Below are positions 2,515 through 21,555 of a stretch of DNA of 37,091 nt, one piece after another (the stretch's first letter is position 1; each line of letters begins with the position of its first letter). The notes under the pieces are model-generated. The model made no database searches. It worked only from the letters and a program-made list of their open reading frames with translations, and was not told where the DNA came from. The stretch is from the IMG/VR virus record IMGVR_UViG_3300024999_000236, positions 1 to 37,091 of that record; one strand, given 5' to 3'. The DNA is from a virus. Both the position numbers and the translations under genes were made by a program.

Positions 2515-2688
2515 TTTTACATAGAATTTTAGGCACTAGAAATAGTGTCTTTATTTGTGTGTAAAAACACAAAGCAGGATAGGGAGAGCTACATGACAAG
2601 GGATAATTTGCCTTAATTTATCCTTTCCTCTTAATTTTCTTTTTTGGATTAAGGCAGTAATTAATGAAACGAAAGGCGGTTGTGAGGA
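2515..2688 (+). promoter_or_regulatory. Structured leader, copy A (pseudoknot-forming), upstream of repeat-type endonuclease
   Basis: Three stems in series are seen. H1: 2531-2538 with 2543-2550, loop GAAA, followed by a T-rich stretch (terminator-like). H2: TTTGTGT (2554-2560) with ACACAAA (2567-2573), loop GTAAAA. H3: 2598-2606 with 2618-2626 (9 pairs, one G-T). The H3 loop contains TGCCTTAAT (2609-2617), perfectly complementary to ATTAAGGCA at 2648-2656, which would form a 9-pair pseudoknot. The segment GCAGGATA (2574-2581) and a final GAAAGGCGGT (2671-2680) are shared with copy B at 5625-5799, while the H3 stem sequence is different but still paired. A cis-acting RNA controlling the downstream gene is the simplest reading; no known riboswitch class is recognised. 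Confidence 0.6.
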
Positions 2689-4452
2689 ATGAGTAAAGTT
2701 AAATTAAGTAATGAGGAAATAATAGAAATTTATAAAGAGTTCGTAAAAGTATTTGGAAAAACTCCTACGCAGAATGAAATGAGAGAAAAGTATAAGAATG
2801 ATAGGGATAATTTTATTTCGGTAGAATTAATCAATTCTAGATTTGGAGGATTAACCAATTTAAATACTTTGTGCGGAATTGAATTAAACTATAAACTTTA
2901 CACAGAAAAAGAATTGATTGATGTATTAATTGATTGTAATAATACATATGGATTTCCAGATAGCAAACTAATAAGAGATAAATATAATATCGATAGGAAT
3001 ATTTATGCTAAAAGATTTGGTTCATTCAAAGAAGCATTAATAATGGCAAAAATTGAAATTCCTCAGAAAAAAATGAATAGATTAGATGCTTATAGAGACA
3101 TATCCAATGAAGACGCACTTAAATTATTAAAAGATTATTGTGATAAACACGGTAGACCAACTCAAAAAGATTTAATACCAGAAAATAATTTACCATCATT
3201 TAGATTTTATAGCAACAGATTTGGATCAATGGAAAACATATTAAATCAAATCGGATTTGAAATTGATGAACAAACAAAAAAATTATATTTTAGCGAATTT
3301 AAGAATATATCAGATGAAGAACTTTTGGAAATTCTGAAGGATTATGATAATAATATTGGGTTCCCTACACAGAGAAAATTTATATCTTCCAATAATTTAC
3401 CCTCATATACTCTTTATGCTGATAGATTTGGATCATTTAGAAATGCAATTATCTTAGCAAATATCATTATACCTAAAAATAGAGAACGATGGTTTGATAG
3501 AGAAGAGTTAACAAATGAAGAAATGCTTAAATTATTAGAGTATCAAACAAAAATAAAACTTATAAGTAATATCTATCTATTAACAAATGATGAAATTAAT
3601 AGTATTAATGAAATACCTCACAGCAGTACATATTACACTCGCTTTGGAGGAATTATTGACGCTTATAAACAAATTGGTATTAATTATGAGGAATTTAACA
3701 ATAAAGCTTTAGAAAAAGATATGATTTTAAAATACAAAGAATTGTATAAAATTTTAGGAAGAACTCCACACAGTAGAGATATTGAATACTACTCAAGGAA
3801 AAGAACTAATGGTTTTTATTGTATGGGAGCGTATGAAGACCATTTTGGTGGAATTTACAAATTACAAATATATTGTGATTTTTTACCTACTGAAATAGGA
3901 AGACAAAAATCAAGTGAAGAATTGATTGAAGATTTACAAGAATTATATGAAAGATTAGGTAGAGTGCCTACTCAAAGAGACGTTGATGATTGTGAATGGG
4001 TGGCCTCGGCAAATAAATACCATAGTGAATTTAATACTTTTACTAATGCACTAAAAGTTGCAGGATTTAAAGATGATAAACAAAGCAATAATTGTTTGTT
4101 AACACCTCAAGGAAATTATTGTAGGTCTTCATATGAATATGATTTTTGTACAATGTTAGAGGGGAATAGTGGTATACTAGAATTTTGGCAAGAGGATTAT
4201 TATTATAATTACATAAAGGACTATACAAGAAGACATAGATTTGATTATACAGTTAAATACAATAATAAAATATACCCTATTGAGATATTTGGTATGATGG
4301 AGCATGAGTGGTATAGAGAAAAAACTAAGTTGAAAATTGACTTATGTAAAAATAACAATATAAATTTAATTGATTTTTATAAGGAAGATTTCAAAAAGAA
4401 AAATAGAGAACAATTATACGAAATGCTAATGAAAAGAATTAAAGAAATATAA
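2689..4452 (+). CDS. Homing endonuclease: seven HNH-associated repeats plus PD-(D/E)XK-like nuclease domain
   Basis: The protein has 587 residues. Residues about 5-464 form seven repeats of roughly 55-60 residues ending in the motif RFGS(F/M)xxA(L/I)xxAxI, for example PSFRFYSNRFGSMENI and PSYTLYADRFGSFRNA; this matches the homing-endonuclease-associated repeat (HNH_repeat type), a DNA-reading module. Residues about 475-587 form a separate domain with Glu483 in RSSYEYDF, Asp519 in RRHRFDYTV and Glu532 in YPIEIFGMM, a PD-(D/E)XK/Vsr-like arrangement. The gene at 11686 has the same domain with the same 13-residue Asp-Glu spacing. No HNH motif is present. It is likely a free-standing mobile endonuclease that promotes its own spread into sibling phages. 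It lies behind leader copy A and 30 bases before the integrase. Confidence 0.75.
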   Translation: MSKVKLSNEEIIEIYKEFVKVFGKTPTQNEMREKYKNDRDNFISVELINSRFGGLTNLNTLCGIELNYKLYTEKELIDVLIDCNNTYGFPDSKLIRDKYNIDRNIYAKRFGSFKEALIMAKIEIPQKKMNRLDAYRDISNEDALKLLKDYCDKHGRPTQKDLIPENNLPSFRFYSNRFGSMENILNQIGFEIDEQTKKLYFSEFKNISDEELLEILKDYDNNIGFPTQRKFISSNNLPSYTLYADRFGSFRNAIILANIIIPKNRERWFDREELTNEEMLKLLEYQTKIKLISNIYLLTNDEINSINEIPHSSTYYTRFGGIIDAYKQIGINYEEFNNKALEKDMILKYKELYKILGRTPHSRDIEYYSRKRTNGFYCMGAYEDHFGGIYKLQIYCDFLPTEIGRQKSSEELIEDLQELYERLGRVPTQRDVDDCEWVASANKYHSEFNTFTNALKVAGFKDDKQSNNCLLTPQGNYCRSSYEYDFCTMLEGNSGILEFWQEDYYYNYIKDYTRRHRFDYTVKYNNKIYPIEIFGMMEHEWYREKTKLKIDLCKNNNINLIDFYKEDFKKKNREQLYEMLMKRIKEI

Positions 4453-4482
4453 AATAAATTATAAAGGAAGTGAATTGAATTA

Positions 4483-5490
4483 ATGACAAGAGGAAGAGTT
4501 TATAACAAAATATATAGCGAAGAGGATTGGAATTTAGTCAATCCTCTAAACAAAGAATTAATGGAAGATTATAAAGCAGAATTAAAACAGAATCAAAAAT
4601 CAGAAGGTACTATTAGTCAATATTTCGCAGATTGGAAAATAGTAATGTTATACGTTTATAGGAAACTAGATAACAAATATCTCCTTGAATTAACAAAAAG
4701 AGATTTTCGTAGATATAGTTTATGGATAACTGGTGATTTGAAAGTATCCAATGCAAGACATAATCGTTTAATGAGTGCTCTTAGAAGTCTTTTAAATTTT
4801 TGCGAAGATGACGATGAGATTGAATACGACATTAATACTGCCCGAAAGGTGAAAGGTTTAAGAAAAGATCCAGTTAAAGATATTGTATTTTTATCAAATG
4901 AACAAATAATGAAACTTAAAGATGAATTGATAAGATTAGAGGATTATATGTTAGCAACAATTTTAATGCTTTCTTATGATTCTTGCGCCAGAAAGAATGA
5001 ATTATTTCAGGTAGAAAAAGAATGTTTTGAAGACAAAGAAAGAAATCATACAAATATTGTAATAGGAAAACGTGCTAAGAAATTTCCATTGCTTTATTTT
5101 GATGCAACTAAAGAGTGTGCCGAATTGTACTTAAAACAAAGAGGTAATGATGATTTAAAAGAAATGTGGATAACCGGAAAAGGTGATAATAAAACTCCAG
5201 TAACTTTGGGGACAATTTATGACTGGTTTGTAGAAATGAGTAATTTATTAAGTAAATTAGAAGGAAAGAAGATTGAATTTAACGTCCATAGTCTAAGACA
5301 TAGCTCATTAGAGAATTATTCTGTTGGAGAGCATTATATGTGTAAAAAGTTAGGAAAAGAAGATTGTCTATTGCTTGAGGATTTACAAATTATAGCTCAC
5401 CACGAGAATTCTTCGGTCACATCTAGCTATCTCAAGGATAAAAAAGATGAAAGACTTCAAAATCTATTTGGGATTAAAATTACAACTTAA
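4483..5490 (+). CDS. int: Tyrosine recombinase / phage integrase
   Basis: This 335-residue protein has an N-terminal SAM-like core-binding domain (about 20-115) and a catalytic domain (about 130-325). The catalytic set is complete: Arg170 in SCARKNEL, a basic strand with Lys197-200 (KRAKKFPLLYF), His269-x-x-Arg272 in NVHSLRHSS, His307 in AHHENSSVTSSY and Tyr316 as nucleophile, with the usual nine-residue His-Tyr spacing. It is about the size of XerC/D-type enzymes and lacks the long arm-binding extension of lambda Int. It would integrate or resolve the phage genome at an att site. AAAGGAAGTG precedes the ATG at 4483. It sits 30 bases after the repeat-type endonuclease and probably shares its transcript. 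Confidence 0.9.
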   Translation: MTRGRVYNKIYSEEDWNLVNPLNKELMEDYKAELKQNQKSEGTISQYFADWKIVMLYVYRKLDNKYLLELTKRDFRRYSLWITGDLKVSNARHNRLMSALRSLLNFCEDDDEIEYDINTARKVKGLRKDPVKDIVFLSNEQIMKLKDELIRLEDYMLATILMLSYDSCARKNELFQVEKECFEDKERNHTNIVIGKRAKKFPLLYFDATKECAELYLKQRGNDDLKEMWITGKGDNKTPVTLGTIYDWFVEMSNLLSKLEGKKIEFNVHSLRHSSLENYSVGEHYMCKKLGKEDCLLLEDLQIIAHHENSSVTSSYLKDKKDERLQNLFGIKITT

Positions 5491-5624
5491 TCCCTATCCC
5501 TATAATCCTCTCCACTCCAACCCCAAATAAAACCCCAAATTTAATGGATAATTGATGTCTCAAAACCCTTATATAGCAACACTTTTCAAATTCCCTAAAT
5601 TGGGATTTTATTAATTTTACAATA
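5491..5624. other. Integrase downstream region; possible attP area
   Basis: This non-coding stretch lies directly after the integrase stop. It holds short C-rich direct repeats (CCCTAT twice at the start, then CCCCAAAT twice near 5522-5540) and an imperfect palindrome around TCCCTAAATTGGGA (5592-5605). Integrase genes often lie next to attP, so this is the most likely place for a core site, but no host attachment sequence is available to compare. Confidence 0.25.
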
Positions 5625-5799
5625 ATATTTACATTAGATTGAAGCACCTTTGATTAAGGTGTTTTTATGTGTTGTAAATTAACACAAAAGAAGCAGGATA
5701 GACTGATCATCGAAAAACACATGCCTTAGTGTTTTCCTGCTTCTCTTTTATTAATCAAGGCAAACATAATATACAATATTGAAAGGCGGTATTAAAACA
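5625..5799 (+). promoter_or_regulatory. Structured leader, copy B (pseudoknot-forming), upstream of primase
   Basis: It has the same element order as copy A. H1: 5642-5650 with 5656-5664, loop TGATT, followed by T residues. H2: TGTGTT (5668-5673) with AACACA (5681-5686), loop GTAAATT. An outer stem pairs AGAAGCAGG (5689-5697) with CCTGCTTCT (5736-5744). Inner H3 pairs AAAACAC (5714-5720) with GTGTTTT (5729-5735). The H3 loop ATGCCTTA contains TGCCTT (5722-5727), complementary to AAGGCA at 5757-5762 (pseudoknot). GCAGGATA (5693-5700) and GAAAGGCGGT (5781-5790) are identical to copy A. The H3 stem differs in sequence from copy A but keeps pairing, which supports an RNA structure. GAAAGGCGGT probably also serves as a slightly off-consensus Shine-Dalgarno. 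Confidence 0.6.
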
Positions 5800-7920
5800 A
5801 TGAGAATCAAATTAATTACAGACAAAGTAAATTATCAGAGCAAACCAAAAGGTGGAGAAATCGGAACAATAATAAACAGAATGGCAATTGGAACGGCAAA
5901 AGAATATTCAATTGAGGAAATTAAACAAAATATCTTATCAGGAAAAACTATTAGACCATCTTATTGCGGAGCTCAAGAAACAGATTGGATATCACAACAA
6001 GTATTTATGATTGATATTGATAATAAACCAGTTAAACCTAAAAAGATGTCAGAAATTGATTATGAAATATTAACTGAACAATATCTTAAAGAAAATCATA
6101 GAACATATGAAGAAATAATTGAACATTGTAAAGAGATAGATATAATACCAAATTTCATTTATACTTCTTTTAATCATAAAGAAAACCACCATAAAATGAG
6201 ATTAGTATTTGTACTAGATAAAGTTATAACTGATGAAAATACAGCAAAAAGAATATTACTCTATTTAATGGAATCTATTGGAGAAGTTGATGAAACATGT
6301 AAGAATCTAAATAGAATATTCTTTGCAGGTAAAAATATAGTATTTGATTCTGGTAATATATTAAATAGTAATTATATTATAGAGTTATCTAAAGATATTA
6401 TTGTAGAGGATTCTAAACCTATAAAGGTTAAAAGTAATAAAATAAATAATAATAATAATAAGGGTAAAAGTCTTATGGAAAGGTATCCTAAACTCTATAA
6501 TAAATATTATAAGATTAAGGATATTGTGAGAGGGTTAAGGGTGACTAGTATATATACTTATAGAAGTAACTCCTTTAATACTTTGGTCACTGTTTCTCAA
6601 CGGTTCGGAAACCCCTCTCGCACAAAGGTATTAGGTAATCCCAAATCTTCTCCCTCTATAAAAGAGAGATATAATATTAAAGCATTAATAAATAGGGAAG
6701 TAGAATATTTACAAAATAGTTTGAATTGTGATCCTATAGTTTTTGATAATAAGGAAGATTTTTGGTATCACATTTATTATAACATTAATATGGCTGAATT
6801 ATTAGAGTTTAAATATCCTTCATCAGTTAAATGTCTATTTCACAAAGATAGTAATCCGAGTGCAAGTATATTTCAAACTAATGAAGGAAAATGGCTATAT
6901 AAATGTCATAGTGGTAAATGTGGAGTAGCAATGAATACTAAACAATTAATTGAAAAACTTGGTGGATTTAAGAGTGAATATAGAGCTATAGAATTTATTA
7001 AGACAATATTCAATTTATCAATAAAAGAAACTCAATGGAGTATTGAACAGAAAGCAAATCTTGATTCAATCATTAATACAATGAATCTAAATAAGTTTAT
7101 GGATTTATGTCCTCAAACAGATAAAAATATTAGATATGTTAAAGAATTATTTTTAGTAATGGCAGGTATTGCTCAAAATAATATTTATGGTGAAAATTAT
7201 ATGAATTCAGATGGGGATGCTGTATTCTTTGTTTCATTGAGTGAACTAGCAAGGATTACAAAAACTGCATCAAATAATTTAAAAAGAATTAGTCAAAGAT
7301 TGGCTGTTTTAACTTATCATGATTTAATAAGGAAATTAGATGATGATAAAATTCCTCCAAAAATGCTTGCTAAAGCTCAAGCAATAGCAATATCGCACAA
7401 GATGACACAAAGAGTTAGTTATTATTCTATTCCTTCATGGGTATTCGACCAACTTAACAATATTGAATCTCAAGGAGTTAAATGGAAACAAAATGGATAT
7501 ACAGTAAAAGGTACTTCATATGAGATGTTTTATAGAACAGAAGGGTTAGAGGTTGCACAAAATATTTACCCTCAATATAAAAAGGTTGCTTCTAAGGATA
7601 TTGATTATGAAACAGGAGAAATAATAGAATCGATTAAAGATAGAACTACAACTAAGAAAAGTGATGAAAGAGTTGAAAATATTGTTTCAGTTGTTGAGAA
7701 GTTGGTAAGTGAAAAGAATTACACTACTGAGAAAGAAATTGTATTATATTTATCTGAAGAATATAAATGGGAAGTAACTGAAATTCAACTTCGTAAAATG
7801 AGAGGAGAATTAGAGAAAATAGGATACATTAGGATTAGAGCAAATAAAGAGTTAAAAGAAAGATATTCTGTTCAGAGTAATGGGTATCCGGTGATTATTT
7901 GCAAAGATGAGAAGAATTAA
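5800..7920 (+). CDS. AEP-superfamily DNA primase with internal zinc finger and C-terminal winged-helix-like region
   Basis: This 706-residue replication protein starts at ATG 5800; an upstream in-frame TTG (5779) overlaps the conserved leader. Residues about 1-200 resemble prophage archaeo-eukaryotic-type primases: metal-binding Asp72-x-Asp74 in VFMIDIDNK, then IYTSFNHKENHHKMRLVFVL and LNRIFFAGK. After a variable linker (about 200-290), residues about 335-390 form a CHC2-like zinc finger with Cys345, His348, Cys369 and Cys374. A helical middle follows; the end (about 620-700) looks like a winged helix. It would make primers for phage replication. No replicative helicase is in the window. Codons of the linker (about 6530-6670) are noticeably richer in C and G than the flanks, suggesting a mosaic or inserted segment. 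Confidence 0.75.
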   Translation: MRIKLITDKVNYQSKPKGGEIGTIINRMAIGTAKEYSIEEIKQNILSGKTIRPSYCGAQETDWISQQVFMIDIDNKPVKPKKMSEIDYEILTEQYLKENHRTYEEIIEHCKEIDIIPNFIYTSFNHKENHHKMRLVFVLDKVITDENTAKRILLYLMESIGEVDETCKNLNRIFFAGKNIVFDSGNILNSNYIIELSKDIIVEDSKPIKVKSNKINNNNNKGKSLMERYPKLYNKYYKIKDIVRGLRVTSIYTYRSNSFNTLVTVSQRFGNPSRTKVLGNPKSSPSIKERYNIKALINREVEYLQNSLNCDPIVFDNKEDFWYHIYYNINMAELLEFKYPSSVKCLFHKDSNPSASIFQTNEGKWLYKCHSGKCGVAMNTKQLIEKLGGFKSEYRAIEFIKTIFNLSIKETQWSIEQKANLDSIINTMNLNKFMDLCPQTDKNIRYVKELFLVMAGIAQNNIYGENYMNSDGDAVFFVSLSELARITKTASNNLKRISQRLAVLTYHDLIRKLDDDKIPPKMLAKAQAIAISHKMTQRVSYYSIPSWVFDQLNNIESQGVKWKQNGYTVKGTSYEMFYRTEGLEVAQNIYPQYKKVASKDIDYETGEIIESIKDRTTTKKSDERVENIVSVVEKLVSEKNYTTEKEIVLYLSEEYKWEVTEIQLRKMRGELEKIGYIRIRANKELKERYSVQSNGYPVIICKDEKN

Positions 7921-11565: not shown

Positions 11566-11604
11566 GTGAGAACAGTCTACTCCTATGGATTGTTCTCACT
11601 TTTT
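11566..11604 (+). terminator. Hairpin with T-run; loop complementary to downstream CATAGGAG
   Basis: GTGAGAACA (11566-11574) pairs with TGTTCTCAC (11591-11599) and TTTTT follows, so it can act as a terminator. Its 16-base loop holds CTCCTATG (11580-11587), the exact complement of CATAGGAG at 11623-11630 and 11666-11673; the second copy is the ribosome binding site of the next gene. Confidence 0.65.
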
Positions 11605-11622
11605 GTATGTAAAAATTTAGAA

Positions 11623-11673
11623 CATAGGAGAAATGGTTTGTTTGGTCTATAAGTAATAAATAAAACATAGGAG
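11623..11673 (+). repeat. Direct repeat AACATAGGAGA carrying a Shine-Dalgarno
   Basis: AACATAGGAGA occurs at 11621-11631 and, preceded by an extra A, at 11664-11674. The first copy is followed two bases later by a seven-codon frame (ATG 11633 to TAA 11656), too close for efficient initiation; the second serves the endonuclease gene. Both copies can pair with the loop of the upstream hairpin. Confidence 0.6.
11650..11663 (+). repeat. Left 14-bp direct repeat flanking endonuclease gene
   Basis: TAAGTAATAAATAA at 11650-11663 is identical to 13090-13103, which begins at the stop codon of the endonuclease. The sequence is A/T-rich, so chance is possible, but the placement matches both edges of a mobile gene. 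Confidence 0.4.
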
Positions 11674-11685
11674 AGTGATTTGTTA

Positions 11686-13092
11686 ATGGGAATTAAAATT
11701 GATAAACAATTTGGTTTAGATAGGCTTAAAGAACATTGTAAAATATATAATAAAATACTTACTAGAGAAGAATTTAAAAAATACAACATTAATCCTTCAT
11801 ATAGTTGGTATGAAAGAAATTTCGGTGATTATAAAAATGCTTGTTATGAAGCAGGATTAATAGAGAAACCATTAACCGAAGAAGAAAGAATTAAGATATC
11901 AGTTAATGAATTAATAAAATTGGCACATAATTTAAATAAATGTCCAACTGTTGCTGAATATGAATCTATTAAACATAGAGGATACCAAAGGCGTGATTTA
12001 GAAAAACATTTAAATATGAAATATAATGACATTTGCAGAAAATATATTCCGCAATATAAGTTAAATAATGATATGGATGTGTCTAAAGAAACGATATTTA
12101 AAGATATGAAAGATATGCTGATTAAGAATGGTAGAGCTATGACATTTGATGAAATGAAAGAGCAAGGTCTTCATTATTCTTACAGTATCTTTGAATCAAA
12201 ATGCAACATGCTTTTTAATGATATTATATTACATCTTGGATATGTCCCTATTGGTACTACAACCTCAACAAGAACAAGAGACGAAATGTTAGATGATTTT
12301 AATAAATTATTTATAAAATTAAATAGAATTCCAACAGTAAAAGATTTAGATAAAAATAATGGAGAAACATCAAATTGGTCTACATATATTAGACATTTTG
12401 ATTCTATAGAAAATATATGCAAAATACTAAATATTGATTATGATAAATATTATATCAATAAAAGTCCAGGAAAAAGTTGTCTTGATAAAAATGGTGGAAA
12501 ATGTAGATCATTTATGGAGTGTATAATAACCAATTATTACATAGATAATAATATTGTATATGAAAAGGAACCTTCCTATAGTGATTTTATAGAAAACGAC
12601 ACAAGAAGATTAGACTGGAAATTAACTTTAAATAATAAATTTTACTACGTAGAGTACGCTGGAATGTACTATCCAAATAAAATGTATAGTCATATAAATG
12701 AGAAGTATGTAAATAAAATAGATAACAAAATAAAAGACTTAAAAGATGTTGGAAGATATGAAGAATGTCTTTTTATTTTTCCAGAGGATATTAAAACAAA
12801 AACATTAAAGGAAATATTTGAACCTTTTCTTGGTATTGAACTTGAAGAAAATAAAAATGGATATAATATTACCATTGTTGAGTATTTCAATAAAACAGAC
12901 AAGGAGCTTTTAGATATTATAATGAAACATAGCACTAATGCTAATATTTTACCAAGTACCTCAATTATTTCAAGGAAAGAGGGAGGTGCTTATAATGAGA
13001 TTAGAAAAAGGTTTAAGACATATAATAACTTTGCTCTACATTTCGGGATGACAACAATGTGTACACCTAGACAGAAAATTTTTCAGATGTAA
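11686..13092 (+). CDS. Homing endonuclease: HNH-associated repeats flanking a PD-(D/E)XK-like nuclease domain
   Basis: The product has 468 residues from ATG 11686 (TTG 11680 is also possible and is six bases after AGGAG). Four repeats related to those of the gene at 2689 fill residues about 10-260, for example PSYSWYERNFGDYKNACYEA and NWSTYIRHFDSIENICKIL. The nuclease domain (about 265-385) has Glu278 in RSFMECI, Asp310 in TRRLDWKL and Glu323 in YYVEYAGM, the same order and the same 13-residue Asp-Glu spacing as the gene at 2689. Another repeat follows near the C-terminus, ending in RFKTYNNFALHFG. It is likely a free-standing mobile endonuclease inserted between the antirepressor and the tail genes. 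A 14-bp direct repeat brackets it. Confidence 0.7.
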   Translation: MGIKIDKQFGLDRLKEHCKIYNKILTREEFKKYNINPSYSWYERNFGDYKNACYEAGLIEKPLTEEERIKISVNELIKLAHNLNKCPTVAEYESIKHRGYQRRDLEKHLNMKYNDICRKYIPQYKLNNDMDVSKETIFKDMKDMLIKNGRAMTFDEMKEQGLHYSYSIFESKCNMLFNDIILHLGYVPIGTTTSTRTRDEMLDDFNKLFIKLNRIPTVKDLDKNNGETSNWSTYIRHFDSIENICKILNIDYDKYYINKSPGKSCLDKNGGKCRSFMECIITNYYIDNNIVYEKEPSYSDFIENDTRRLDWKLTLNNKFYYVEYAGMYYPNKMYSHINEKYVNKIDNKIKDLKDVGRYEECLFIFPEDIKTKTLKEIFEPFLGIELEENKNGYNITIVEYFNKTDKELLDIIMKHSTNANILPSTSIISRKEGGAYNEIRKRFKTYNNFALHFGMTTMCTPRQKIFQM

Positions 13093-20600: not shown

Positions 20601-20708
20601 TTTAATGTTACAGGAAAAGATTTTACGACAAGAGATTTGGATAAGATTAGTGGGCATATAGCTCATAGAACTATCACCAATTTAAAAAGAGTAGGAGTTA
20701 ATATTTAA
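14607..20708 (+). CDS. Tail tape measure protein
   Basis: This 2033-residue protein starts at TTG 14607 behind GAGAGGTGATTAAAT. Residues about 285-480 carry the conserved phage tape-measure core (ELARTTIEVVKATANFAKMG, then AQAGNTIEETTALLTSANAV and FKTLALRLRG). Hydrophobic segments lie near 590-635 and 690-716. The rest is coiled coil, with a near-repeated unit IDAxxEAEEKRH around 1530-1612 and runs of KNxKDAExxKND around 1680-1770. A Ser/Gly linker (nt 20188-20250) precedes the end motif YAEGGETQSTGMHYLDGKVG typical of these proteins. At 1.5 angstrom per residue it predicts a tail near 300 nm. Segments about 18300-18560 and 18820-18990 use many more C-ending codons, suggesting mosaic origin. 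Confidence 0.92.
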   Translation: MANKDDMFGIGIKLTWTPQELTSQINAIQNYITKNHNLKINLNLNEATLKGLERLSQLSKSAAKELNAIKAPMFNLDNPNQEAQKYIGTINNLVSTFQKFKGQTSVVYDEFGKVSLKVDTASGAIKRYTLQWDELTQRLSRTNMRNIDNSNVNIERELQLRQRLNAQIQNNAESLQHYLRIQQMNLNSSMSRFETQRTGLYNVDELNNLRTRLNQLTPTTENLRRNVGLLRAEFNALNTTAIANGINTVNRNAMSLGESLKLVAFKMLTWLGMGNLIFGTISQIKSAVVFIKDLDSAMINLKKVTNETSTAYKEFENDAGNLGRELARTTIEVVKATANFAKMGYTLREAKELAKEALIMQNVGDIENVDKATQYLIATLKGFNLQATQSAKVVDIMNEVSNLHSITVDGLGKAYERSSAVMAQAGNTIEETTALLTSANAVVQNPEKVGNGFKTLALRLRGVDEEAKELFPKLEADLNAVGVQLRNVDGGWRSTYNILKDFSKVYMQMPDMARSKLLEDMSGKYQANILAATLQNFSEAEKTLEDALTSVGSSARENEIYLTSVEARVRQFKVSLEELYKLFLSSDLLKGGISVLGGLVSVMSGVSSVFGGIPALAGAATTSVLVFSSALRTSIYETIRLKVEQYGFLRSIPALWLTATGGVRGFSGTLAFLRTSLTSTRIAVIALQTTMTLGLSLVITGVIALVQKLVEALGRSKNAMDEQSQAFKDTLDNLGNLTSDYEKANKLIAIYNELSKVTNKTVDQKQKLVDVQQQLAQLFPSLVTGYDLEGQAILDLDSKHDDLIAKKKEEINLETKRLSSQFYQNQAIWIQSMVESQKELNKLKIEQKDIQDNIDNIKTNTSLSEDVKESYLVGWYEKFDAVSGKISDTQLKLNKVKTTYDQGLTSTVKYELESLKLSNDTINNFSDNYLSLVEVLKNSGNDPSVVLRGIFESIKKNSDIQNVFKNWTDAQNKYKEGSIEAVEVEKLHKKTIDDLTESLKKSNPELKPEIVDSIAQSFILLGNVTPKVKDGIDSTAQSFATLQETLSDSSSAISEIQSALDSYNETGKFSLDNIIKLSSTYPKLLGMLGDEKAIREELTNIIEQEQEKSRQAYIVMLNGSVNFYNKNIEGIQKFVAGLDGAREVDLSGAKSLAEAKLKVENELMKNLAGMWSQYYDAQGNMTKANIIDGGRTIVGQDGKETYITPEMRAQLKAYYDASSAVKKKFDDIAMSGTKSIDFSKLGMSKSDSKKKEEKLLSIESTTQALINQIQQEYLLQKAKSDSIQKDLSQAQSQKDYAKTLELTNSLISSQAQELSLLSTARSKINQAKDSAISSASSQFGNISERWFTGNDNQESVAYIEEHNKASEKTRKIMEETFKSLQLLRNAWMSNKSTMDENAESSKSLKTSLTQIQIDKFNQSISFLDDSISQSKANLDLYSTSSQEYSNEQSYQISLLQQKKSAIDSEILSLKSQLVNTELTTEATVLLSEALKTSISDGINAQKALLDAKSSIADSVISTMKSSLETQKDIALKSIDLQMDAEDKRHTNEIDNIEKETKETAKKYKTITDDIDAQTEAEVDRHKIATDNIDAEIETEEKRHTSVIDNIDAEIAKLNEQADTDSYNTKLAKDQKEAQDIQDKINILSLDNSLEAKAKISDLNDELSEKQIAIADFQQKHSLDLQNKNLQRLKDAENTKNDLRNKDFKNFKDVEDTKNDLINKNLKTYKDAQSDINDSQNEYYQNMKDAEDNKNKIIKDGLDLQKKNQEYFWNEQINNERYFASLRTQIINGNIDQMKTKLTSFLADFKNMNEETAKALGVSWTGLQSLIDGVQASQTNLNVISNGVTTPYYPGTTMNGVPVSNNGSSSSSSSSGSSSTSSSSGNYVTWNNGSSGWNAHDSSGNIIASGVANPPKYAEGGETQSTGMHYLDGKVGKPERVLSPVQTTSFNQLVKDLPSLTTVMDNLMKNNLLMNNFKQPQIDFSNFKPRSSETHVSVPTTINFNVTGKDFTTRDLDKISGHIAHRTITNLKRVGVNI

Positions 20709-20717
20709 TAAATCAAG

Positions 20718-20753
20718 AAAATAAGATGTGCATTGAACTACACATCTTATTTT
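20718..20753 (+). terminator. Hairpin terminator between tape measure and Dit
   Basis: AAAATAAGATGTG (20718-20730) and CACATCTTATTTT (20741-20753) form a perfect 13-pair stem with a 10-base loop. With flanking A and T it could stop or attenuate transcription in both directions inside the tail operon, or protect mRNA ends. Confidence 0.7.
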
Positions 20754-20778
20754 CTATAAAAAGGTAGGTGAATAATTA

Positions 20779-21555
20779 ATGTCAATATCAGAATCATTAT
20801 TTTTTATTTATGATAATGTAAACTTTTATGAACAATTTGGAATTATAAATGTCCATGTTGATTCAGGGTTATATGATGAAAGTTTTCTATCAAATAGAAC
20901 CATAATTGAACAAAAAATAAGAAAAAATCCAGTTCCATATTTTCAAGAAATTCAAGAAGATACATTAGAGTTAAAATTATCATTTGCTTTTTCTGATAAA
21001 TTTGATGAAGAGAAAATTCGTGAAGTGGCAAGAAGTCTAAAAAAAGATTTTTATGCTCCTTTGATTTTTTCAGAGAATCCAGACCGTATCTTTTTCGCAT
21101 TATGTACTGACAATCCAAGATTAATACACACTGGATTGGGAACTGGCTATATAAATTTGAATTTCAGATGCAACGCTCCTTGGAGTTTTAGTCCAATTTA
21201 CTCTTCTCCTATTTATGATTACTCCTCTAATTCTGTTGAAGGAACTCAATTGAAATTTATAAACAATGGTGATCTTCCATTGTCACCTCTCATTAATGTA
21301 GAAATCGTTAGTGGGACATCTTTTTCAATTCAAAACTTATCTGATGGTGGAAAATTAATGTCATTCACAGATTTAGAAGTTGGTGAAATTTTAGAAATAA
21401 ATTGTGAATCTGAAGATATTAAAACCAATATTCCGTTAATTTATAGATATGATTCTATATCAGGAGATTTTCTGAGTTTGAATAGAGGAATTTCAAATTT
21501 GTTGGTTAAAGGTAATATAAAACTACAATTCCAATATGAACATAGAATTCTCTAG
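20779..21555 (+). CDS. Distal tail protein (Dit, Sipho_tail family)
   Basis: This 258-residue protein starts at ATG 20779, behind AAAGGTAGGTGAATAATTA. The N-terminal half has the Sipho_tail pattern: LLFIYDNVNF-type opening strands, an alternating strand region with DTLELKLSFAFSDKFDEEKI, VARSLKKDFYAPLIFSENPD and FNLNFRCNAPWSFSPIYSS-like end (here YINLNFRCNAPWSFSPIYSS). The C-terminal half is a beta-sandwich-like galectin region (KFINNGDLPLSPLINVEIVS). Dit forms the hexameric ring joining tail tube and tip. Its place right after the tape measure and before the large tip protein is the standard order in Gram-positive siphophages. Confidence 0.85.
   Translation: MSISESLFFIYDNVNFYEQFGIINVHVDSGLYDESFLSNRTIIEQKIRKNPVPYFQEIQEDTLELKLSFAFSDKFDEEKIREVARSLKKDFYAPLIFSENPDRIFFALCTDNPRLIHTGLGTGYINLNFRCNAPWSFSPIYSSPIYDYSSNSVEGTQLKFINNGDLPLSPLINVEIVSGTSFSIQNLSDGGKLMSFTDLEVGEILEINCESEDIKTNIPLIYRYDSISGDFLSLNRGISNLLVKGNIKLQFQYEHRIL

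Follow-up and report, generated by a model that had tools for sequence, protein, structure and literature searches.

In phage T4 and its relatives, homing endonucleases are under translational control by RNA that conceals the ribosome-binding site (RBS), as for I-TevI, I-TevII, I-TevIII, segB and Aeh1 mobE (PMC2988022). The int-alpA RNA (RF02996), likewise an already known family, is typed in Rfam as 'Gene; sRNA' (small RNA), and the literature searched contained no study of its function. Riboswitches such as preQ1-II and SAM-II engage the Shine-Dalgarno sequence through a pseudoknot or through the expression platform. Here, we analyzed a stretch of viral DNA of 37,091 nucleotides (IMG/VR record IMGVR_UViG_3300024999_000236; its full length is termed the window), which carries two homologous structured RNA leaders on its plus strand: copy A (2515–2691), the first, ahead of a homing endonuclease gene, and copy B (5628–5802), the second, ahead of a gene for a primase-like protein. 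Based on sequence comparison, both leaders are diverged relatives of the int-alpA RNA, and we consider it likely, at a probability of about 0.7, that each controls the gene behind it as a cis-acting translational switch.

Two leaders with an int-alpA-like core

The core of the leaders is a three-way junction, in which stem P3 encloses two hairpins, P3a and P4, with a conserved GAAAA stretch between them. For copy B, all core elements are present (5691–5762): P3 at 5691–5698/5735–5742, P3a at 5701–5711 with the loop CTGATCA at 5703–5709, and P4 at 5715–5720/5729–5734, whose apical loop L4 (ATGCCTTA, 5721–5728) forms six base pairs (bp) through positions 5722–5727 with a downstream AAGGCA, site 1, at 5757–5762. 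For copy A (core 2572–2656), P4 (2600–2606/2618–2624), the sequence GACAA and the pseudoknot are present, the last with 9 bp between positions 2609–2617 of L4 (2607–2617) and site 1 (2648–2656). Its P3a region is weak, and its P3 is degenerate, especially in the outer part, with 4 bp (AGGA 2576–2579/TCCT 2626–2629) plus a C-C mismatch. The sequence GCAGGATA lies at 2574–2581 in copy A and at 5693–5700 in copy B.

Single-sequence folding of the core was unexceptional (z −0.7 and −0.1 for the two copies), and the structure is therefore argued comparatively. Members were gathered by pattern scans of viral contigs, a search with the primase-like protein and a covariance model; they are denoted by L numbers below. 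Most matches from the first three DNA-pattern scans were chance matches, and members were retained only if supported by independent features; L280, a chance pattern match, was dropped. In an alignment of eight B-type members, termed A4, which includes copy B, L164 and L173, 94.6% of the cells were paired and 10 of the 21 pairs were altered on both sides. The covarying pairs include those of P3 (GCAGGA/TCCTGC, GCAGAC/GTTTGC) and P4. None of 500 shuffles equaled the observed covariation score, and the signal was lost when the partner strand was slid by one base.

The covariance model R1 was built from eight phage members, with copy B included and copy A and the Pseudomonadota members excluded. 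On the window, copy B, a training sequence, scored 86.8 bits, and copy A (2572–2655) ranked second with 21.5 bits (E 0.0076), followed by a match of 13.9 bits. R1 also recovered classic Pseudomonadota int-alpA loci at their Rfam coordinates (L213, L217, L199, L216 and others; best E 1.2e-6). Reciprocally, the Rfam int-alpA model, with a gathering cut-off of 35.8, matched L164 at 55.9 bits and L173/L190 at 40.8 bits, and the matches in L164 and L173 cover exactly the P3-P4-AAGG part. On copies A and B, int-alpA gave no match even at E 10 in narrow Rfam searches, and an Rfam search of the whole window, as well as of A and B separately, returned chance matches only. Since A and B fall outside the Rfam cut-off, their link to int-alpA runs through these intermediates. 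BLASTN found no match for copy B among phage records, nor for a classic int-alpA member in E. coli and phage.

The first-pass annotation of this DNA had described two homologous leaders with the hairpins H1 and H2, a hairpin whose loop contains TGCCTT (its H3, here P4) and a downstream AAGGCA. All of these elements were located at both loci, and the proposed loop pairing of 9 bp in A and 6 bp in B was confirmed. Selection on structure had been suggested as well; covariation among homologues was looked for and found. The list of elements was correct but incomplete, as it overlooked P3, P3a, P5 and the TTTACA/TGTAAA pairing between P0 and the H2 loop described below. The statement that the leaders match no RNA family can no longer be maintained: A and B themselves are unmatched in Rfam, and their close relatives L164 and L173, together with the reciprocal R1 matches, connect them to int-alpA.

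Within positions 2572–2633, copy A joins a B-like 5′ half (AAGCAGGATAG) to an A-type 3′ half, with P3 mismatched. A-type relatives occur in L077 and L088, and the copy in L088 (2721–2799) has an intact P3, TAAGAGGA/TCCTCTTA. Because the 5′ half of copy A is B-like while P3 of this A-type relative is intact, copy A may be a recombinant, possibly through gene conversion between leaders A and B.

Two complementary sites for the P4 loop

Downstream of P4, L4 has two complementary sites: site 1 after P3, which yields the pseudoknot, and site 2, which is the RBS of the next gene (AAGGC at 2673–2677 in copy A and at 5783–5787 in copy B). As seen when classic members are read side by side, L4, site 1 and site 2 vary together. 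This coevolution was evaluated through the longest Watson-Crick run that each loop forms with its own site, set against the runs with other members' sites over 5000 permutations. For 63 distinct loops, the values were 5.60 versus 3.72 at site 1 (z 15.0) and 5.11 versus 4.16 at site 2 (z 8.0), with 0 of 5000 permutations as high in either case, while controls taken within the gene and upstream stayed at z −1.1 and −0.5. An independent phage set, collected with one 18-base string that excludes the loop, contains far more diverse loops; its 40 distinct loops gave z 16.6 at site 1, 9.6 at site 2 and 1.0 in the control. All these z-scores overstate independence because related sequences share loop and site alike, which the restriction to distinct loops lessens without removing.

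CCTT-like loops are frequent, and every Shine-Dalgarno sequence resembles AAGG or GGAG. Hence, the pseudoknot might only stabilize a fold that binds a ligand or protein, and the RBS match might be a by-product of general anti-Shine-Dalgarno complementarity. We regard this as very unlikely, as the permutations use other members' RBSs with the same bias and the z-scores still reach 8–10. Moreover, loops outside the CCTT type also fit both of their sites: GCATC/GATGC in L265, CTGATA/TATCAG in L351, and AACTCGC in L171, which fits GCGAGT and GCGAG. In the independent phage set, the loop ATTCTGATAC fits GTATCAG and TATCAG, and the loop AACGTAGA fits TCTACG and CTACG. Start codons right after site 1, which might mark leader peptides, were left uncounted, as a TGAAGG-type target by itself would produce them.

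A hairpin termed P5 usually carries site 2 in its loop. In copy A, this hairpin is AAC[GAAAGGCG]GTT (2668–2681), with GAAAGGCGGT at 2671–2680; in copy B, it is AATATT[GAAAGGC]GGTATT (5775–5793), with GAAAGGCGGT at 5781–5790, and holds the RBS of the primase-like gene. Further examples are GCAC[GAAAGGCG]GTGC in L081, AATTAC[GGAAAGGTG]GTAATT in L164, AACAC[TATAGGAG]GTGTT in L191 and CGCG[AGATGCA]CGCG in L265. The stem around site 2 averaged 4.7 bp across 147 members, compared with 3.3 bp for shuffled flanks (maximum of 50 replicate means, 3.65) and 2.8 bp around site 1. A stem of at least 4 bp surrounded site 2 in 77% of the members, versus 38% when the flanks were shuffled and 24% for site 1. 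Given this excess over shuffled flanks, GAAAGGCGGT, which the first-pass annotation had treated as mere sequence beside the gene, is the loop and 3′ strand of the conserved P5, inside the RNA, and GAAAGGCG within it is the P5 loop.

The Shine-Dalgarno sequence of both A and B is an odd AAAGGCGGT instead of AAAGGAGGT. Its C weakens pairing with 16S rRNA by ~4.5 kcal/mol and improves pairing with L4, whereas the remaining window genes mostly have ordinary Shine-Dalgarno sequences. A third leader (11566–11691), before a second repeat-type endonuclease-like gene (11680–13092), follows the same logic without an int-alpA core: it has a T-followed hairpin with CTCCTATG in its loop (11580), and CATAGGAG occurs exactly twice downstream (11623 and 11666), the second copy being the RBS. 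These are the sole occurrences of CTCCTATG and CATAGGAG on the plus strand of the window.

Co-resident copies with different loops each fit their own gene, as observed for L190 and L192 (in G008) and for L164 and L191 (in G001), which makes cis action most likely. Alternatively, the RNA could be a trans-acting sRNA, terminating at the U-rich stretch behind P3, with an L4 that targets RBSs elsewhere, the next gene being one of several. This is how Rfam types int-alpA, and T-rich sequence follows P3 in many members. However, the sites within a copy suit its L4 better than sites taken from elsewhere in the family, the co-resident copies point the same way, and site 1 belongs to the same molecule, directly past the putative end, so that a trans-acting sRNA seems unlikely. 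The same U-rich tract, together with the T-followed H1 upstream, would also suit a transcription attenuator, in which P3 and the U-rich tail act as a terminator and nearby pairings decide whether the gene is transcribed. The U tract precedes both partner sites of L4, so that their pairing would come too late to affect termination there; moreover, A and B have an interrupted tract, and site 2 coincides with the RBS. We consider attenuation improbable.

Under the translational-switch reading, L4 would pair with one site at a time, the two pairings being mutually exclusive. Loop-loop pairing of L4 with P5 would hide the RBS and keep translation low, while pairing with site 1, a single-stranded decoy after P3, would free the RBS; the control would act in cis. 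Candidate triggers are binding of a ligand or protein to the conserved junction, dimerization of the RNA through P3a, the transcript context and phage timing, and the conserved junction nucleotides suggest a putative binding site. The first-pass annotation had proposed cis-acting control of translation or read-through of the two genes; the present data favor control of translation of the endonuclease and the primase-like protein as most likely and lend no support to read-through.

Several points weigh against this reading. The sequence does not tell which pairing is ON, that is, the direction of control. Pairing with site 1 is longer on average than pairing with site 2 (5.6 versus 5.1 bp), so the state with the hidden RBS might be minor. 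Loop and site can be inherited together, for which the use of distinct loops is a partial remedy. Additionally, the U-rich stretch after P3 also fits a terminator, Rfam lists int-alpA as an sRNA, and copy A, with its poor P3, may be decaying.

The 5′ domain and the P3a loop

Upstream of the core, both leaders contain a domain formed by P0, H1 and H2. For copy A (2515–2571), P0 is TTTTACA (2515–2521), H1 spans 2532–2549, or 2532–2556 with its T-rich tail, and H2 (2557–2570) presents the loop TGTAAAA (2560–2566), which pairs with P0. For copy B (5628–5686), P0 is TTTACA (5628–5633), H1 (5645–5661) again has a T-rich tail, and H2 (5668–5686) presents the loop TGTAAA (5673–5678), which likewise pairs with P0. 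This complementarity was found in 12 members from Bacillota-like phages with five different sequence pairs: TTTACA/TGTAAA, ATTTAAGA/TCTTAAAT, TTTCAA/TTGAAA, TAATCAAT/ATTGATTA and TATTTTGTT/AACAAAATA. Over these 12 members, P0 with its own H2 loop scored 7.2 versus 5.5, and 2 of 5000 permutations were as good. The label 'Bacillota-like' for these metagenomic phages was judged from gene content and composition. In addition, P0 can pair around H1 as a single long hairpin (exceptional fold z of −5.0 for A and −5.5 for B); this predicted hairpin crosses H2 and would imply a pseudoknot or two alternative folds. The T-followed H1 stem probably ends or attenuates upstream transcripts. The 5′ domain is an added feature of these Bacillota-like phages.

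The loops of P3a mostly hold a self-complementary 4–6-mer (TGATCA, TAGCTA, GGCC, CTGCAG, TGCA, CATG, CGCG). Self-complementary loops made up 17 of 21 distinct ones, versus 5.3 expected after shuffling, in a set of hand-picked, related sequences. This suggests that the RNAs could form kissing dimers through P3a.

Genes behind the leaders and relation to known systems

The gene behind copy A (2689–4452) encodes a 587-residue homing endonuclease with six HNH_repeat units (Pfam PF18780, E 8.2e-57). The gene behind copy B (5800–7920) encodes a primase-like protein with a weak primase match (phrog_360, E 6e-4); its relative in L019 carries a CHC2 zinc finger (PF01807, E 1.2e-7). The start of this gene is best placed at ATG 5800, as TTG 5779, the start of the listed open reading frame, falls within P5. 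A tyrosine recombinase gene (4483–5490; phrog_1, E 3e-25) lies upstream of copy B. Differing tyrosine-recombinase-like genes also precede the leader in several relatives (L077, L086, L088, L097), recalling the 'int' of int-alpA.

Relatives of copy B stand ahead of primase-like genes in L074, L086, L088, L173, L176 and L019, and copies stand ahead of GIY-YIG or HNH endonucleases in L077, L088, L097, L183, L191 and L282, a call that rests on Pfam for L097, L191 and L282 and was made by eye for L077, L088 and L183. The gene in L164 resembles, by eye and without a Pfam match, a DnaD-like replication protein. Of 30 phage proteins directly behind members, 15 belong to homing/HNH-type endonuclease or endonuclease VII families and 7, or 8 with the related phrog_25314, to replication initiation, primosomal or primase/helicase families; the endonuclease and primase-like genes of the window are therefore typical. 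The RNA travels together with homing endonuclease genes and is also found on phage replication genes.

No leader was found in the primase relatives L178, L180 and L186. In L019, the RNA and the primase-like gene (3664–5760) lie between tape-measure and distal-tail genes, and the pair looks mobile; the same two tail genes are 70 bases apart in the window (20708–20779). The leaderless relatives and this pair indicate that RNA and gene are separable. Given the adjoining integrase/recombinase and endonuclease genes and the tandem copies in some genomes, the hairpins might instead act as DNA, as a recombination or homing target. We give this almost no credence, because the element keeps a fixed sense orientation and distance just upstream of start codons, tolerates G-U pairs and places site 2 at the RBS. 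A sub-threshold match to the RAGATH-27 RNA (55.1 bits versus a cut-off of 76.1) lies upstream of the leader in L173 (3924–4009).

Two chance matches from a scan of genome contigs were used only as taxonomic centres for sampling genomes. RF02996 was found in 47 of 299 sampled Pseudomonadota genomes, often multiply and sometimes in tandem, and was rare (1 of 96) in the phylum to which the second centre belongs. One 18-base variant alone occurred in at least 120 stretches of viral contigs. Tandem int-alpA copies within a few kilobases were observed in L268 (G028:C33) and L277 (G120:C2); in the latter, the gene behind the second copy is itself followed by one for an AlpA-like protein. Many Pseudomonadota genes behind int-alpA match no Pfam or PHROG family.

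A broader and more tentative reading, to which we assign a clearly lower likelihood, is that int-alpA and its relatives form one large unrecognized class of phage translational switches, with a fixed junction sensor, a coevolving 'address' loop and a module spread by endonucleases. If so, the address loop would choose between the decoy and a loop-loop contact over the RBS, homing endonucleases would spread the module for reuse by replication genes, and P3a dimers would let the RNA sense its own dose, that is, phage genome or transcript number. The coevolution itself gives the common int-alpA RNA a concrete, cheaply testable candidate function and shifts 'sRNA' towards cis-regulation. The range of int-alpA would extend to Bacillota-like phages and be tied to homing endonucleases and replication initiators, and the freely changing loop-target pair could be a source of orthogonal translation switches. 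The phage branch with a 5′ domain, RBS hairpin, double-target coevolution and association with endonuclease and replication genes was not found in the literature searched, which did not cover the original motif description.

Similar to preQ1-II and SAM-II riboswitches, the leaders would form a pseudoknot that joins a loop to the ribosome-binding region. In contrast, they have two target copies, one a decoy, and the target lies in a hairpin loop; Rfam found no sequence relation between the two, and a ligand of the leaders is only putative. Similar to the hairpins of T4-type homing endonucleases (PMC2988022), RNA structure at the gene start covers the RBS, and RNA complementary to an endonuclease RBS was identified by sequence and comparison in copy A, L077, L088, L191 and L282. 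However, the T4-type hairpins are simple and local, whereas the leaders have a three-way-junction core and a loop whose partner is the decoy or the RBS loop; no homology is claimed.

The closest likeness is to int-alpA, which shares P3 enclosing UA, P3a, GAAAA and P4 with a CCTT-type loop, followed by a U-rich stretch and AAGG complementary to the P4 loop. Leaders A and B differ by the additional 5′ domain, and the 71-position Rfam model ends before P5 and the RBS pairing. Neither copy has the int/alpA setting of the name, as copy A lies between a RuvC-like gene and the homing endonuclease gene, and copy B between the tyrosine recombinase and primase-like genes. The gene directly behind many Rfam-passing int-alpA members is not alpA either. 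Finally, in contrast to the sRNA type that Rfam assigns to int-alpA, the evidence for the leaders described here favors a cis-regulator.

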